From contig JAUSKS010000068.1 of NCBI GenBank assembly GCA_030646595.1, positions 1 through 10,318 of the forward strand: a DNA stretch of 10,318 bases, in the 5' to 3' direction. The notes below the pieces were generated by a model. It saw nothing but the letters and a program-made list of their open reading frames with translations. It searched no databases and was not told the DNA's origin. A program made the position numbers and the translations under genes. This document shows, piece by piece, positions 5,128 to 10,318 of the stretch (position 1 is the first letter of the stretch; each line of letters starts with the position of its first letter). This stretch comes from Gallionellaceae bacterium (GTDB lineage: Bacteria > Pseudomonadota > Gammaproteobacteria > Burkholderiales > Gallionellaceae).

Positions 5128-5619
5128 CTAAGCCAACTGACTCACTCCATGCAGCATTTCCAGCGCGCCTTGCAAAGCAATATGAACGGACTGCATGCGA
5201 ATTTCTGCACGATTACCGGGAAGTTGATGTAAGCGCGCTGTACATGCCCCATCTTGTATACCCCAGGCAACCCATACCATGCCCACTGGTTTGTCTAAGG
5301 TGCCGCCGCCAGGCCCCGCTATGCCGCTGACTGCTACCGCCATCTGTGCATGACTGTGACGCAAGGCACCGCTGACCATTTCGCGCACTACTGCTTCACT
5401 CACGGCACCATATTTAGCTAGCGTGGCTGGGGCCACGTCCAGCATTTCCTGCTTGGCTTCGTTGGAATAAGTAATAAATCCGCGCTCGAACCAGGCCGAG
5501 CTGCCAGCAATATCGGTAACAGCGACAGCCACGGCCCCGCCAGTACACGACTCGGCTGTTGCCAGTTTATAGCCATGTGCTTTGAGTGCCGCGCCCACCT
5601 TTTCCGCTAAGTCATGCAT
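5128..5619 (-). CDS. pncC: nicotinamide-nucleotide amidase PncC (CinA C-terminal domain)
   Basis: PncC deamidates nicotinamide mononucleotide to nicotinic acid mononucleotide, recycling NMN (for example from DNA ligase) into NAD synthesis in the cytoplasm. The 163-residue stand-alone protein corresponds to the CinA C-terminal domain without the N-terminal MoCF-like domain, as in E. coli PncC. Family signatures are ATAESCTGG (residues 20-28, with Ser24 in the expected catalytic position), FITYSNEAK (48-56, Lys56), and the central VSGIAGPGGGTLDKPVGMVWVAW. Its ATG overlaps the metZ stop by one base (TAATG), so translation is probably coupled, and it should come under the SAM riboswitch in front of metZ. 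A metabolic reason for joining NMN recycling to methionine synthesis is not obvious. Older annotations may call it competence-damage protein CinA. Confidence 0.92.
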   Translation of the reverse strand: MHDLAEKVGAALKAHGYKLATAESCTGGAVAVAVTDIAGSSAWFERGFITYSNEAKQEMLDVAPATLAKYGAVSEAVVREMVSGALRHSHAQMAVAVSGIAGPGGGTLDKPVGMVWVAWGIQDGACTARLHQLPGNRAEIRMQSVHIALQGALEMLHGVSQLA

Positions 5620-6788
5620 TACAAACCCCGCCGCAAATCGTGCTGAATATCGCTTACCGCTTCCAGACCCACGGCCACCCGCAGCAAACCTTCGGTAATC
5701 CCGGCAGCAGCACGGGCTTCCGGCGTGATGCGCGCATGGGTGGTGGTGGCAGGGTGCGTGAGCGTGGTTTTGGTATCACCGAGATTAGCGGTAATGGATA
5801 CCAATTGGGTATTATCTATCACCCGCCATGCGGCTTCCCGCCCACCTTTGACCTCGAACGACACAATGCCGCCCCCCGCTTTCTGCTGTTGCATGGCCAG
5901 ACGATGTTGCGGGTGTGACGGCAGGCCGGGATAAAACACCCGCACCACATTCGGCTGTGCCTGCAACCATAGCGCCACGGCCAGCGCATTGGCGCTGTGC
6001 GCCTCCATGCGCAGCTTTAATGTTTCCATGCCTTTTAGAAATATCCATGCATTAAATGCACTGAGTGTTGGCCCCGCTGTGCGCAGAAATTGATAGATAG
6101 GCTCCATTACTTTTTTACTGCCCAGCACCGCGCCGCCCAGCGCGCGACCCTGCCCGTCAATATACTTGGTGGCCGAATGAATAATGATGTCCGCGCCCAA
6201 TTCCAGCGGGCGTTGCAGGATGGGTGTGCAAAAACAATTATCCACCGCCAGCAAGGCGCCGCATTTCTTCGCCACTGCGGCGACGGCCGCAATGTCGGAA
6301 ATTTCGGTGAGTGGATTGGACGGCGTTTCCAAAAAGAACAAACGCGTATTGGGCCGCACCGCAGCCGCCCACTCGCTCACTTCGCTAGCTGAGACAAACG
6401 TAGTTTCCACGCCGAAGCGTTTGAAGATAGTGCCAAACAAATTTACCGTGGCGCCGAAAATACTGCGCGAAGCGACAATATGATCGCCGCTTTTTAGCAA
6501 GCCCATGCCACATGCCAGTATTGCTGACATGCCGGATGCCGTCGCCACACACTGCTCAGCCCCTTCCAGCGCCGCCAGCCGCTCCTCGAACATGGTGACA
6601 GTGGGGTTGGTAAAGCGCGAATAAATATTGCCCGGCTCTTCGCCGATAAAGCGCGCAGCAGCTTGCGCAGCGCTATCGAACACAAAGCTGGAAGTCAGAA
6701 ACAGCGCCTCGCTGTGCTCGTTGAATTGACTGCGCACCGTGCCCGCATGCACGGCCAGTGTTTCTGGTTGATAAGATGGCTTAGGCAT
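5619..6788 (-). CDS. metZ: O-succinylhomoserine sulfhydrylase MetZ
   Basis: MetZ is a pyridoxal-phosphate enzyme of the Cys/Met metabolism family that makes homocysteine directly from O-succinylhomoserine and sulfide, bypassing cystathionine. The 389-residue protein is full length. Visible motifs are YSRFTNPT (56-63), ATASGMSAIL (82-91, cofactor phosphate contact), FLETPSNP (152-159), AVDN with Asp183, and the PLP lysine in SATKYIDGQGR (Lys208). The opening with ETLAVHAGTVR and the overall wording favour MetZ over cystathionine gamma-synthase (MetB) or beta-lyase (MetC), but substrate preference within this family is inferred from similarity. The ATG at 6788 has AAGGAG 5 nt upstream. It is preceded by a SAM-II-type riboswitch and terminator, as expected for repression by S-adenosylmethionine, and overlaps pncC downstream by one base. 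Confidence 0.94.
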   Translation of the reverse strand: MPKPSYQPETLAVHAGTVRSQFNEHSEALFLTSSFVFDSAAQAAARFIGEEPGNIYSRFTNPTVTMFEERLAALEGAEQCVATASGMSAILACGMGLLKSGDHIVASRSIFGATVNLFGTIFKRFGVETTFVSASEVSEWAAAVRPNTRLFFLETPSNPLTEISDIAAVAAVAKKCGALLAVDNCFCTPILQRPLELGADIIIHSATKYIDGQGRALGGAVLGSKKVMEPIYQFLRTAGPTLSAFNAWIFLKGMETLKLRMEAHSANALAVALWLQAQPNVVRVFYPGLPSHPQHRLAMQQQKAGGGIVSFEVKGGREAAWRVIDNTQLVSITANLGDTKTTLTHPATTTHARITPEARAAAGITEGLLRVAVGLEAVSDIQHDLRRGL

Positions 6789-6803
6789 GAAATCTCCTTA
6801 AAT

Positions 6804-6837
6804 AAAAAACCCGGCAAGCTTGCGCTAAACCGGGTTT
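6804..6837 (-). terminator. intrinsic terminator forming the riboswitch expression platform
   Basis: On the minus strand, AAACCCGG (6837-6830) pairs perfectly with CCGGGTTT (6814-6807) around a 15-nt loop, and the T-tract runs to 6804 (TTTTTTATTT). It lies immediately after the SAM-II aptamer and before the metZ ribosome binding site, so it would stop transcription before metZ. The loop contains CGCAAGCT (6824-6817), exactly complementary to AGCTTGCG in the aptamer loop (6875-6868), which offers an antitermination route. Confidence 0.85.
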
Positions 6838-6839
6838 CC

Positions 6840-6893
6840 CTCGCTTTAGCTGCATTTATTATGCGCCCGCAAGCTGTTCCTCAAATCGGCGCA
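6840..6893 (-). ncRNA. SAM-II riboswitch (metA-type motif) upstream of metZ
   Basis: Reading the minus strand, the segment has the parts of the SAM-II aptamer in order. These are a P1 5' strand TGCGCC (6893-6888), the conserved GATTTGA, a loop with GCTTGC, the P1 3' strand GGCGCA (6867-6862), then AATAAATGCAGCTAAAG. The GATTT, CTTGC, ATAAAT and GCTAAA elements are those of the known 52-nt H-type pseudoknot that binds S-adenosylmethionine. The loop AGC-T-TGC (6875-6869) can pair with the tail GCAGCT (6853-6848) with one bulged U, giving the pseudoknot. Its position before metZ, a methionine gene, fits the known regulon. SAM-II is best known from alphaproteobacteria. Recognition is by eye, without a covariance-model search. 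Confidence 0.88.
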
Positions 6894-6898
6894 AGCAG

Positions 6899-6927
6899 AA
6901 ATTAACACCGGCCATAAGGCTTGTCAA
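6899..6927 (-). promoter_or_regulatory. promoter of the riboswitch-metZ-pncC unit
   Basis: A perfect -35 hexamer TTGACA (6927-6922) is followed after 17 nt by TAATTT (6904-6899), preceded by TGT as an extended -10 element. The predicted start near 6892 coincides with the 5' base of riboswitch stem P1, so the aptamer would be at the very 5' end of the mRNA. The -10 matches consensus only partly; the extended TG and perfect -35 compensate. Confidence 0.72.
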
Positions 6928-6953: not shown

Positions 6954-7958
6954 TCAGCGACTATTGGCCATATTAACAATAGCTGCGCCCAAGTTCTGAT
7001 TCAGGATAATACCTGCCTGATCCATCGCACGCTTAATGGCAGTCTCCCGATCCGGCGCATTGCTTTTTATGGGCCAGTGCTGGGTGCCGCGTATTCGTCC
7101 GCTGGCTGCTTCAGACAAGGTTATTTCCAGGTCGCCACGTTGCCAGTACCAGCCTTCTTTAAGCCCCAGGTCAGTTAAATTCATGCGCGCCTGCAATAAG
7201 TATTCCGCATTTTGTCCGGGCGTTATCATGAATCCGGCTTGAGCCAATGCCCCGGCCACAGCCTCGGCCAAGCCAGGCGGGGCATCTGCTGATACTTGCG
7301 GCACCAGACGCACACGCTTTATTAATTCATCCCGATCTGCTTTCAGCACTGCGCTATTCCAGGGCGAGACTACACCTTGTCCGGTGGCATCCACTATTTG
7401 CAAGGATTGTTGCAAACCTGCACGCTCTTGCTGTGATTCCAGCGCGCGGGTGGCGGTGGCAATCTGCAAAAATAAATCGCTGCTCAAGCGCGACTGCTCT
7501 ATATAATTTTTTGTTGCTTCATCCAGTTGGCTGATCTGCTGGCGTAGACTGGCTGCAGTCTGCAAGCGTGGCAAAATAGCCAGTGCATAATACGTATGCG
7601 TAAGCGGGTCTTGCCATAATTCAGCTATTTGGATGCCGCGAATAATCTGCTCGGTGCGTGTGCTGATGTGGCGCGAAGAAGCGGTTTCATATTGGCCCGT
7701 TGTGACACCCGCAGGCTCGTTTTTGAATTTCTGGCTATCTTCGCTTTCTGCCACCACCGCCACCTGAAAAATTTTAGACAGATCGGCGCGCGCCCTGTCC
7801 TTGGCTTCTTCCTGCGTGGCTGCCATGCCGTGTCCAATCAAATATTGGGCGCTGGAATAAGACTTGCTGTTGCCCGCTATCCAGTCAGGTTGAGGAGGAT
7901 CGCTGGCACAAGCGCCCAGCATCAAGGCAACAAAAAAAACCGCTATCGGAAATTTCAT
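6954..7958 (-). CDS. LPP20-family lipoprotein
   Basis: This is a predicted envelope lipoprotein of 334 residues. The signal peptide MKFPIAVFFVALMLGAC ends in a lipobox with Cys17 (LGAC). Asp follows Cys at +3, not +2, so there is no inner-membrane retention signal by the E. coli rule and outer-membrane sorting is likely. Residues about 24-130 match the LPP20 pattern: PDWIAG, then YLIGHGMAATQEEAKDRARADLSK-like residues, with ALAILPR closing the domain. A helical stretch (about 130-190) follows. A second alpha/beta segment (about 205-325) contains AVAGALAQAGF and ATRMNL-like residues, resembling regions in outer-membrane assembly proteins. The ATG at 7958 has AAGGAG 6 nt upstream and overlaps the previous stop as ATGA, so it is coupled. 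The exact function is unknown; LPP20 relatives include Helicobacter Lpp20 and Vibrio FlgP, but nothing flagellar is visible here. Confidence 0.85.
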   Translation of the reverse strand: MKFPIAVFFVALMLGACASDPPQPDWIAGNSKSYSSAQYLIGHGMAATQEEAKDRARADLSKIFQVAVVAESEDSQKFKNEPAGVTTGQYETASSRHISTRTEQIIRGIQIAELWQDPLTHTYYALAILPRLQTAASLRQQISQLDEATKNYIEQSRLSSDLFLQIATATRALESQQERAGLQQSLQIVDATGQGVVSPWNSAVLKADRDELIKRVRLVPQVSADAPPGLAEAVAGALAQAGFMITPGQNAEYLLQARMNLTDLGLKEGWYWQRGDLEITLSEAASGRIRGTQHWPIKSNAPDRETAIKRAMDQAGIILNQNLGAAIVNMANSR

Positions 7959-9307
7959 TTTGCTCTCCTTCTGCCAGCAGGCTGGGCTGGTATCCAATGC
8001 TGCGTCAAATAAGTTTTATGTGCCTGGGTAATGGTCACGCCAGGATATTCCTTGCTGCTCACCACCTGCCCGTCCTTATCCCGCAATTCAACGGTAACGG
8101 TATAACTGCCAGGAGGTAAAGACAAACGCGCTAATTGAATATTGGCCGGCAAGGTCAGCCAACTGCGGGTATCCGCCCGTTCGGTGGCAATGGCAGCGAC
8201 CTGCACTGCAAATGCACCGAGCAAATCCAGGGCGGCATCGTTGTCATTGCGCCGCTGCATATTTCGGGTCGCTGTCGTTTTAGCTACTGCCCGCGCCAGA
8301 GAACGCGCAGTAATCGCCGGTAAGCGTGCATCCAGGCTTTGCCGCGCGATGGCATCAATATCTTCCATCAGCTCGCTGGTGGCTTGTTTGCCGGATGCCT
8401 GCCCCCCAGACACCCTGATACGGGCCGAGGCCACGTTGTTGAAGCGCGACTCATAATAAGGCAAAGCAATGCGCGCCATGATACCGCTAACCGGATCAAA
8501 CAAGCTGATGGCTTTTTCACGCTTGATCGGGGCCAGGCCGTTATTCAAAATGAAGACCAATTCACCTTGCTGAGATGCAATTTCTTTGCCCGGCGGAGTC
8601 AAATCAAATTTTTTTTGGTATTGTGCTGCTTCATCGCTCAAGCCTTGACGTTGCGTCAGGCGCAGCAAATCATGCTTGAGCATATCGGGCAGCGCCAAGC
8701 CATAATGCTTCTGGTATTTCTGATAGGCTTCATAGGCTTTGCGGTAAGCGATCAGCGCATCGCTCCATTCACCATGCTCTTCGTAAATCAAGCCGGTAAG
8801 ATAACGCGAGAAAGCGTCTTCCGTAAATTTGCTGTCAGGAATTTTCTCACCGATCTCGCGCAGTTTGATATCCACCTGTAGCGCCTCCACCCGTGCTGCA
8901 TCTGGCTGGGCAAGCTCCAGATAATTGAGTGCCATATACAGATGCACCAGCACCTGCTCGTAATCATCTCCGGCATAACTGACAGTGGCATCGTTAACCA
9001 GAAAGGACAGGGTATTTTCACTGACGCTGGCGGCATACAGCCGCTCCATTTCCGCTTTGGCTGCTTCCAATGTTTGATTGGAGCCAGCAAAGTCATGCTG
9101 CATACGCTGCACCATACCTTTGTTCAGCAGGTACAGCACACGATCATGCTTGACTGTGGATTGTTGCTCGATATTTTGCAAAGCAACATCATACTGCTGC
9201 AAGGCGAGATTCCGTTCGATCACGCCAAAAGACGTGCTATAGCTGGCACACCCGCTTAGTGCCGCCACGCACAGCAGCACCCGGCAGCGCTCACTCCATA
9301 CAGCCAT
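7955..9307 (-). CDS. COG3014-type TPR-rich lipoprotein of unknown function
   Basis: This is a predicted lipoprotein of 450 residues. A signal peptide (VLLCVAALSGC) ends in a lipobox with Cys20. Residues about 25-240 are helical with TPR-like repeats (for example EHGEWSDALIAYRKAYEAYQKY), suggesting a protein-interaction scaffold. A middle alpha/beta part contains FILNNGLAPIKREK and SLFDPVSGIMARIALPYYE. The C-terminal part (about 395-440, PPGSYTVTVELRDKDGQVV) looks like a small beta-sandwich. It resembles the uncharacterised COG3014 family, which I recall as a neighbour of LpoB-like and LPP20 genes. The ATG at 9307, 4 nt after the upstream stop, gives the signal peptide its normal length. The frame extends to a TTG at 9337 inside the previous gene. 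No Shine-Dalgarno sequence is visible, so translation probably depends on coupling. Confidence 0.83.
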   Translation of the reverse strand: MAVWSERCRVLLCVAALSGCASYSTSFGVIERNLALQQYDVALQNIEQQSTVKHDRVLYLLNKGMVQRMQHDFAGSNQTLEAAKAEMERLYAASVSENTLSFLVNDATVSYAGDDYEQVLVHLYMALNYLELAQPDAARVEALQVDIKLREIGEKIPDSKFTEDAFSRYLTGLIYEEHGEWSDALIAYRKAYEAYQKYQKHYGLALPDMLKHDLLRLTQRQGLSDEAAQYQKKFDLTPPGKEIASQQGELVFILNNGLAPIKREKAISLFDPVSGIMARIALPYYESRFNNVASARIRVSGGQASGKQATSELMEDIDAIARQSLDARLPAITARSLARAVAKTTATRNMQRRNDNDAALDLLGAFAVQVAAIATERADTRSWLTLPANIQLARLSLPPGSYTVTVELRDKDGQVVSSKEYPGVTITQAHKTYLTQHWIPAQPAGRRRAK

Positions 9308-9311
9308 AAAA

Positions 9312-9929
9312 TCAGAAGCGCAAATTGCTGCGCTCAACCAATTTTTTGATTTTCTTCTGGCCTACCCACACTTTGCTGTTGTCTACCAGACTGATCAGCG
9401 TCAAGTCCACTTGGTAGTAGCGCAACTGGGTGCGCCCGGAAGCATCAATAATGGTATTGATCGTGCCTTGCAGCATGAAGTCCGCGCCTTTTTCCTGACC
9501 CATGGCTTTGCGTGTCGCCTCGCTGGCATTCAGATCCTGATCCTTACGCTCGCCGCGAATTTCCTGGCGTTCGGTGGAAGAAGCCACAAACTGCACCTTG
9601 CCGGAATTGATCAATGCGCGCTCGGTATCGGCCACGAAGGTATTGACGTTGATATGTTCATGACTCAGGTTGCGCACTTCCCCGACGATCACTGCGGGCT
9701 GGCGTTTTTGCAAGACCGTGTATTCAGTCAGCCACGGGCGGTTCAGCACATCCTGTATCATTTCCGCCGACACCTGCTGCGAATCGGTGTCATTCCATGC
9801 CCCGCTCAGGTCTTGTACCTCTGCTGCATCCATGCGAGTCACCTTGGTAGCGCAAGCGCCTAATGCTCCCAGCAACACGATCATGCCCAGCAGGGCAGCA
9901 TTTTTTTGCAGTGCGGTAAATAAACTCAT
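9312..9929 (-). CDS. LpoB/COG3417-type lipoprotein (putative penicillin-binding protein activator)
   Basis: In E. coli, outer-membrane LpoB reaches through the periplasm to the UB2H domain of PBP1B and activates peptidoglycan synthesis. The 205-residue protein here has a signal peptide with lipobox LGAC and Cys26. The family core begins almost at once: VQDLSGAWNDTDSQQVSAEM, RPWL, PAVIVGEVRNLSHEHIN, then TERALINSGKVQFVAS and EKGADFMLQGTI, ending with KVWVGQKKIKK. The ATG at 9929 overlaps the upstream stop (TAATG) and has AAGGAG 8 nt upstream. Unlike E. coli LpoB (213 residues, with a long disordered linker), only about ten residues separate Cys26 from the folded core, so reaching PBP1B in the same way is doubtful. 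I therefore withhold the lpoB symbol. Its role is inferred from family and neighbours. Confidence 0.88.
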   Translation of the reverse strand: MSLFTALQKNAALLGMIVLLGALGACATKVTRMDAAEVQDLSGAWNDTDSQQVSAEMIQDVLNRPWLTEYTVLQKRQPAVIVGEVRNLSHEHINVNTFVADTERALINSGKVQFVASSTERQEIRGERKDQDLNASEATRKAMGQEKGADFMLQGTINTIIDASGRTQLRYYQVDLTLISLVDNSKVWVGQKKIKKLVERSNLRF

Positions 9930-10318
9930 TATTTTTTCTCCTTGGCGACACGGTCAAAAATATTATCAGCGCGGCTATCGATATAACGCTTCAAATCCTC
10001 ATTCATATCATTCACCCCGGCCAGCGTACTTTTTACATGATTCATGTCCAGCTCGGCGATAGAATAAATAATATCGCTCTTGGGGTCGCGCCAGTTGCCG
10101 ATAATACGGGCACCAGCCAGATTGACCTTGCTCAGGTTTTTGATCTGGCGGGTAACCGCTTCTTCCGTGGTATGCGACTCTCCTGCTTTGGCCGCCGACA
10201 TATAATCATTGGAAACCACATCCAGGTAAGAAGAAAGGATGCGCGCCACCTCGGCCCGCGCCCGGTCGTCGGCAACCGAGGTTTGCAGCGCCATATCGCC
10301 CCTGGCAGAAGCCGACCC
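9929..10318 (-). CDS. LPP20-like protein, C-terminal part (5' end outside window)
   Basis: The frame is open from the window edge and ends with TAA at 9931-9929; 129 residues are visible and the N-terminus, including any signal peptide, is missing. An internal ATG at 10294 is not a likely start, because the residues before it (GSASARGD) belong to the fold and no ribosome binding site precedes it. The visible part, with GSA, then LQTSVADDRARAEVARILSS-like residues and TRQIKNLSKVNLAGARIIGNW, and YSIAELDM closing the strand, has the helix-then-strand pattern of LPP20-type domains. It shares this with the gene at 6954-7958, so the operon has LPP20-type proteins at both ends of the visible part. 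It overlaps the LpoB-like gene by one base (TAATG). Confidence 0.75.
   Translation of the reverse strand, partial: GSASARGDMALQTSVADDRARAEVARILSSYLDVVSNDYMSAAKAGESHTTEEAVTRQIKNLSKVNLAGARIIGNWRDPKSDIIYSIAELDMNHVKSTLAGVNDMNEDLKRYIDSRADNIFDRVAKEKK

Follow-up and report, generated by a model that had tools for sequence, protein, structure and literature searches.

SAM-II riboswitches with terminators were described in alpha- and betaproteobacteria in 2007 (PMC2258182), and Bordetella bronchiseptica is included in the list of Corbino 2005 (PMC1273637). The SAM-II leader of Sinorhizobium meliloti metZ is predicted to terminate transcription, and a riboswitch sRNA of ~100 nt from this leader was commoner in high-SAM medium (2022, PMC9373788). 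A scan of ~200 genomes with Rfam placed SAM_alpha in Rhizobiales and Rhodobacterales only, and the same study described metXZ, a novel betaproteobacterial element with six conserved sequence blocks, composed of a pseudoknot and a terminator and located before metXW or metZ (Leyn et al. 2014, PMC4239095). The metZ-linked cases of metXZ were those of three Methylophilales, Nitrosospira multiformis and Thiobacillus denitrificans (PMC4239095). In 2022, the leaders of B. thailandensis metX and metZ were called “suspected” regulatory elements, confirmed by unpublished data (PMC8814607). Finally, the Rfam family Bp2_287 (RF02424) originates from a screen for Burkholderia sRNAs, where it was located before methionine genes and seen by RT-PCR (PMC3521395).

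We analysed a 10,318-nt stretch of DNA from a Gallionellaceae bacterium (contig JAUSKS010000068.1; hereafter the window). A promoter with TTGACA, the full SAM-II aptamer and a strong terminator follow one another on the minus strand between positions 6927 and 6804, with metZ-pncC directly downstream. Along this strand, the order of elements is TTGACA, 17 nt, TAATTT, P1 TGCGCC, GATTTGAGGAACAGCTTGC, P1 GGCGCA, TAATAAATGCA, GCTAAAGCG, the hairpin AAACCCGGTTTAGCGCAAGCTTGCCGGGTTT, six T, AAGGAG and ATG. The affiliation of Gallionellaceae with the Betaproteobacteria agrees with the betaproteobacterial character that the initial annotation had ascribed to the genes from their sequence. Our analysis gives good support to this leader as a sound, ordinary member of SAM-II and as a termination platform, with SAM binding expected from membership of the class.

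The perfect −35 hexamer proposed previously is present (TTGACA, 6922–6927), and TTGAC occurs at the conserved spacing in 106 of 110 leaders from the family. In 70/73 metZ-type and 36/37 metX-type family leaders it lies 34–38 nt upstream of P1, and the position of the promoter is therefore conserved. A 17-nt spacer separates this hexamer from the extended −10 element TGT-TAATTT (6899–6907), in which the TG extension had been correctly recognised but the hexamer is weak, matching at only 3/6 positions; among metZ-type leaders, the commonest form of this element is GTG-n-TA-n-TT. Transcription is predicted, by spacing arithmetic only, to start at the first base of P1 (6892–6894, about 6893). A simple promoter and terminator scanner called neither a minus-strand promoter nor a terminator at the leader.

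The blocks that the initial annotation had listed as diagnostic of SAM-II (TGCGCC/GGCGCA, GATTT, CTTGC, ATAAAT and GCTAAA) are all present, at the positions that SAM-II requires. Based on the RF00521 match and pair counts, the P1 arms correspond to TGCGCC (6888–6893) and GGCGCA (6862–6867), which pair perfectly. They are separated by L1 (6869–6887), which contains GATTTGA and the P2 5′ strand CAGCTTGC (6876–6869). L3, TAATAAATGCA, occupies 6851–6861 and leads into the P2 3′ strand GCTAAAGCG (6842–6850). The latter is what we take to be the strand carrying the SAM pocket; according to alignment and leader folds, it would also supply the proposed antiterminator with its 5′ half.

At the Rfam gathering score of 36, RF00521 (SAM_alpha) returned no match in the window. 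With an E-value threshold, the model aligned over its full length (1–79) to 6829–6902 on the minus strand with 33.1 bits and an E-value of 4.2e-6 (231 bases, 4227 families), so that the covariance search suggested alongside the initial annotation proved significant while staying under the gathering score. When the whole genome was searched, the E-value of this site was 9.7e-6, and a second site in the same genome, located before metX, exceeded the cut-off with 37 bits. RF00521 matched 0/14 control genomes. The low score of the window may be because the P2 of the Rfam consensus is longer than that of these leaders. The same core in Oceanicaulis (L202) reached only 22.1 bits (E 0.62), and either RF00521 covers such sequences poorly or their link with SAM-II is weak. 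SAM-V, which resembles SAM-II in structure but lacks its final 3′ pairing element (PMC2704228), was considered because P2 is short; it was dropped, as it was not among the four matches to this region at E up to 10.

The terminator that had been placed ahead of the metZ ribosome-binding site corresponds to a hairpin at 6837–6807 with −17.5 kcal/mol in our own hairpin search, with a tract of six T at its end (6809–6804). Terminators below −8 kcal/mol were found in 102/108 family leaders. Next on the minus strand come the ribosome-binding site AAGGAG (6794–6799) and the metZ start codon ATG (6788). The metZ gene (5619–6788) encodes an O-succinylhomoserine sulfhydrylase (NF006003, 721.5 bits, cut-off 522), the protein passing two models for this enzyme, and overlaps by one base with pncC (5128–5619), which encodes a nicotinamide-nucleotide amidohydrolase (TIGR00199, 163.1 bits, cut-off 68.9). 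Both gene names had been assigned previously and are backed by these scores; against the full PncC equivalog NF002975, pncC fell just short (207.3 bits, cut-off 212). Upstream of the leader, four genes occupy 6954–10294 on the minus strand. One of these (9312–9929) is similar to LpoB, a penicillin-binding protein activator (81.6 bits, below the cut-off of 110.6), and the other three were matched by no NCBIfam model.

Leaders of this kind are widespread in the family. At E ≤ 0.001, RF00521 matched 80 of 100 Gallionellaceae genomes; the Rfam cut-off was reached in 35 of the 100, the remaining 45 of the 80 containing matches below the cut-off only. The other 20 genomes gave no RF00521 match in this large search with strict filters. 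Fifteen of them belong to a single genus (g12), other members of which have one or two matches; loss or divergence of SAM-II in these genomes is possible. We retrieved 110 leaders, comprising all 109 family matches and the second match in the genome of the window, and each precedes metZ (66), metX (37) or a paiB-like gene and then metZ (7). The gene intervening between riboswitch and metZ, presumably paiB, was observed in seven Gallionellaceae leaders (L017, L018, L019, L023, L038, L052 and L091). Counted by genome (n=80), 43 have such a leader before metZ only, 30 before both genes and 7 before metX only, these being minimum numbers given the strict filters of large searches. Across the order, RF00521 matched 137/300 genomes, 51 of them above the cut-off. 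The rarity of betaproteobacterial SAM-II that the initial annotation implied is contradicted by this frequency, as it is by the 2007 report (PMC2258182). The genome of the window also contains an SAH riboswitch (48.6 bits, G000:C169:3812-3899, L257), a class found in four groups of Betaproteobacteria (PMC4239095).

A pattern scan of named genomes returned at least 118 stretches, mainly from beta-, gamma- and alphaproteobacteria. Because retrieval required an exact match to 24 fixed bases, the identity of these letters among the loci is by construction. Among the matches listed, stretches lie before metZ in Nitrosospira sp. Nsp14 and Methylophilales HTCC2181, and before metX in Herminiimonas, Herbaspirillum, Zoogloea and Thauera. 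By two-reference tblastn, the first gene was metX in 34 and metZ in 27 among the 118 matches listed, with some of these assignments made at 25–40% identity and 57 stretches left without one. Some matching records were labelled Acidimicrobiia, Planctomycetota, Bacteroidetes or Bdellovibrio. One of 256 loci (L124) fell outside the regular expression for the core and was left out of the counts.

In P1, changes on both sides of the helix were evident. Among 246 unique leaders, counting pairs outward and stopping at the first break, we observed C-G at pair 4 in 203 leaders and U-A in 42, whereas six types were present at pair 6 (A-U, U-A, U-G, C-G, G-U and G-C). In an alignment of 24 hand-chosen rows spanning alpha-, beta- and gammaproteobacteria, 95.2% of P1 cells were paired, compared with 24 to 55% in slid versions; rows drawn from the pattern scan have the letters of the pattern in common by construction. 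Both-side changes were present in 18 cells, and this number and the covariation score were reached by 0/500 shuffles; two of the five P1 measures were unexceptional against shuffles, namely pairs with a both-side change (132/500) and pair types (328/500). P1 contributes to the score of the model by which the family loci were detected, and its pairing in them is therefore partly a product of selection. The P2 core pairs 19-48, 18-49 and 16-50, in a numbering that we take from the SAM-II crystal structure, were canonical in 107/107 unique family leaders; this core is almost invariant, which demonstrates its presence rather than covariation. The outer pair 15-51 is missing in the window and was canonical in 8/71 metZ-type and 30/36 metX-type leaders, the outer P2 being reduced to one pair (16-50) in 63/71 of the former and having two or more in 30/36 of the latter. 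An outer extension of P2 is described for most, not all, SAM-II (PMC2704228). The significant covariance match, the P1 pairs changing on both sides and the metZ/metX context support the SAM-II identity first proposed for this leader.

The aptamer 3′ strand GCUAAAGCG is complementary to the 5′ arm of the terminator. In the window, CGGTTTAGC (6824–6832, minus strand) is at once the terminator 5′ arm and, from complementarity and folds, the antiterminator partner of GCTAAAGCG in 8/9 pairs. At least eight of nine downstream pairs with GCUAAAGCG, G-U allowed, were available in 104/108 unique family leaders, compared with 25% of shuffled downstream sequence. The partner occurs in five forms, CGGUUUAGC, CGGUUUGGC, CGCUCUAGC, CGUUUUGGC and CGCUUUAGC; one of the nine pairs is a G-G mismatch in the metZ-type partner and A-C in the commonest metX-type form. 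Nascent leaders were folded as transcripts that begin at the first P1 base and stop short of the last 3′ run of the terminator, and an antiterminator was called at four or more expected pairs, using programs that are blind to pseudoknots and ligand. By this definition, the antiterminator formed in 63/66 metZ-type and 31/36 metX-type leaders (94/102 in total), compared with 189/660 and 75/360 of the respective shuffled-downstream controls (26%). Full-length folds favoured the terminator in 59/66 metZ-type and 26/36 metX-type leaders. For the window, 7.9 antiterminator pairs are expected in the nascent RNA, with P1 intact, and none in the complete transcript, the unconstrained full-length fold of which loses P1. 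The nascent fold of the window differs when begun four bases upstream of P1, pairing then with bases that are probably untranscribed. Computation thus establishes the aptamer, the terminator, the conservation of both and pairings that exclude each other, and the conserved terminator with its conserved competitor sustains the transcription-termination platform envisaged in the initial annotation.

The aptamer 3′ strand hardly varies, and the complementarity on which the antiterminator is based is therefore one-sided and comes from related sequences. Exchanging terminators inside family groups left the pairing no weaker (−10.05 vs −10.05; −10.54 vs −10.51), and the antiterminator is accordingly without covariation within groups. 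In the order and named samples, terminators from other groups out-paired the leaders' own (−8.71 vs −6.81; −8.97 vs −7.85), and the antiterminator was rarer outside the family, appearing in the nascent folds of 14/25 order and 52/78 named leaders. A second possible antiterminator pairing, between L1 AGCUUGCG and CGCAAGCU, is nested outside the first; in the window, CGCAAGCT on the loop and 3′ side of the terminator (6817–6824, minus strand) is complementary to L1 AGCTTGCG. This pairing surpassed the leaders' own shuffles in the family (63/66 and 36/36). Permutations with covariation as good numbered 0/5000 in the metZ group, and 554, 770 and 600 of 5000 in the metX, order and named groups, respectively. 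Because it covaries only in the metZ group, the L1 pairing is ranked second, though it was the first antiterminator candidate.

We consider it highly likely that the leader is a transcription-terminating SAM-II riboswitch through which abundant SAM represses metZ-pncC; ligand binding, the point of initiation, the timing of the folding steps and the OFF direction of control are here read by analogy with the class and with S. meliloti metZ. Transcription would begin at P1, which would fold immediately. At low SAM, the free GCUAAAGCG would pair with CGGUUUAGC in the terminator 5′ arm once this is transcribed, and polymerase would continue into metZ. When SAM is bound, GCUAAAGCG would be locked in pseudoknot P2 against L1 CAGCUUGC, releasing the terminator 5′ arm; the hairpin at 6837–6807 could then form and end transcription ahead of the ribosome-binding site. 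Probing of another SAM-II, in which P1 stayed protected irrespective of SAM whereas P2 and L1 were exposed in its absence, fits this mechanism (PMC10907184).

Control of translation, with the hairpin as a merely constitutive terminator, would have precedents in the best-studied SAM-II (metX), which buries the ribosome-binding site in P2 (PMC10907184), and in S. meliloti metA, the terminator of which is predicted to lie outside riboswitch control (PMC9373788). In the window, however, the terminator stands between the aptamer strand and the ribosome-binding site, which are ~43 nt apart, and the complementarity of the terminator 5′ arm to this strand in 104/108 leaders also speaks for termination; we regard translational control as unlikely here. 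It is more improbable still that the leader represents a different, novel betaproteobacterial regulator, the metXZ element, distinct from SAM-II. Such a reading could draw on the published novelty of metXZ and on the confinement of SAM_alpha to Rhizobiales and Rhodobacterales (PMC4239095), on the position of the window under the gathering score, and on the leaders of HTCC2181, Herminiimonas, Herbaspirillum and Thauera, which share the core but went unmatched by RF00521 at E 0.01 in a 61-kb scan. Yet the genes and groups concerned are those of metXZ (metZ of Nitrosospira and Methylophilales, metX of Herminiimonas and Zoogloea) and the anatomy is the same, while RF00521 does score such leaders (L111 52.5 bits, Novimethylophilus L141 36.9 and Nitrosospira L151 32.1). 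The Nitrosospira and Methylophilales metZ leaders that we fetched contain the SAM-II core, and the pattern of 24 fixed bases also retrieves alpha- and gammaproteobacterial loci. Leaders of the window type agree with the definition of metXZ as a conserved betaproteobacterial metX/metZ leader with a pseudoknot and a terminator, and on comparison with its text description, rather than by alignment, the metXZ element is very probably SAM-II. A literature search that had most subscription papers outside its reach found no equating of the two.

The opposite strand has its own candidate, since RF02424 matched the plus strand of the window at 6804–6924 (27.1 bits, E 1.6e-4). Together with the RT-PCR detection of the Burkholderia candidate (PMC3521395), this match could be taken to indicate an antisense or trans-acting sRNA encoded on the plus strand, which we judge to be the remotest of these explanations. 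In a scan of 35 sources, with no locus labelled Burkholderia among them, RF02424 was antisense to the SAM-II core at 8/8 loci reported (the window, L133, L141, L204, L268, L274, L263 and L202), all below the RF02424 cut-off and the last four with E 0.004 to 0.44; in the window, its 27.1 bits compare with a gathering score of 70 and lie antisense to the leader. Furthermore, a plus-strand RNA would have a reverse-complemented terminator at its start, the sole plus-strand promoter-like site called by the simple scanner is directed away from the leader, and the source paper itself proposes a cis element of methionine metabolism (PMC3521395). Rfam Bp2_287 appears to have been modelled on the wrong, antisense strand of SAM-II leaders.

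A compact SAM-II-like element was also observed in Neisseriales, with a P1 of four pairs, an L3 of 5–9 nt (11 in the window), and the same L1 and GCTAAAGC strand. It lies 74–127 nt upstream of a metN match in 17/17 loci (L258–L274), from 17 of 399 genomes of the window's order; at the outer P1 pair, 13 of these 17 loci have C-G and the other 4 have T-A. Among six compact loci from named genomes (L161, L186, L218, L231, L239 and L245), metN is downstream in four; the sequence of L218 stops before the gene is complete, and a metX-like gene follows L186, from a MAG labelled Bdellovibrio. RF00521 reported 0/9 compact loci at E up to 1. The metNIQ genes of Betaproteobacteria have no known regulator according to PMC4239095.

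Returning to the terminating riboswitch, SAM-II with terminators in Betaproteobacteria (2007, PMC2258182) and before metZ in Sinorhizobium (2022, PMC9373788) is already known, and what our analysis adds is an explicit antiterminator and the likely reclassification of metXZ and Bp2_287. More tentatively, as a possibility that we stop short of favouring, these leaders may constitute a distinct betaproteobacterial SAM-II subclass with a core-only P2, in which the SAM-pocket strand would be time-shared as the 5′ half of the antiterminator. Such a subclass could explain both the orphan metXZ and the mis-stranded Bp2_287, and its smaller form would control metN, and with it methionine import, in Neisseriales. 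If the overall interpretation is right, a known ligand class would be assigned to an unexplained leader covering the homoserine-to-homocysteine steps across Betaproteobacteria, one Rfam cut-off would miss more than half of the matching family genomes, one Rfam family would seemingly be on the wrong strand, and the bases for a mutational test of the termination mechanism would be identified.

The leader thus shares with the SAM-II of S. meliloti metZ the P1, L1, L3 and GCUAAAG strand, a promoter just upstream of P1 and a terminator ahead of metZ, but differs in its betaproteobacterial host and in the one outer P2 pair to which most metZ-type leaders are reduced. It resembles the metXZ element as a metX/metZ leader of the same betaproteobacterial lineages with a pseudoknot and a terminator, whereas metXZ was published as novel, unrelated to SAM-II and with a different pairing scheme (PMC4239095). 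In the window, the Bp2_287 match spans the leader from near the −35 hexamer to the terminator, but it is placed on the opposite strand and the family is named an sRNA.
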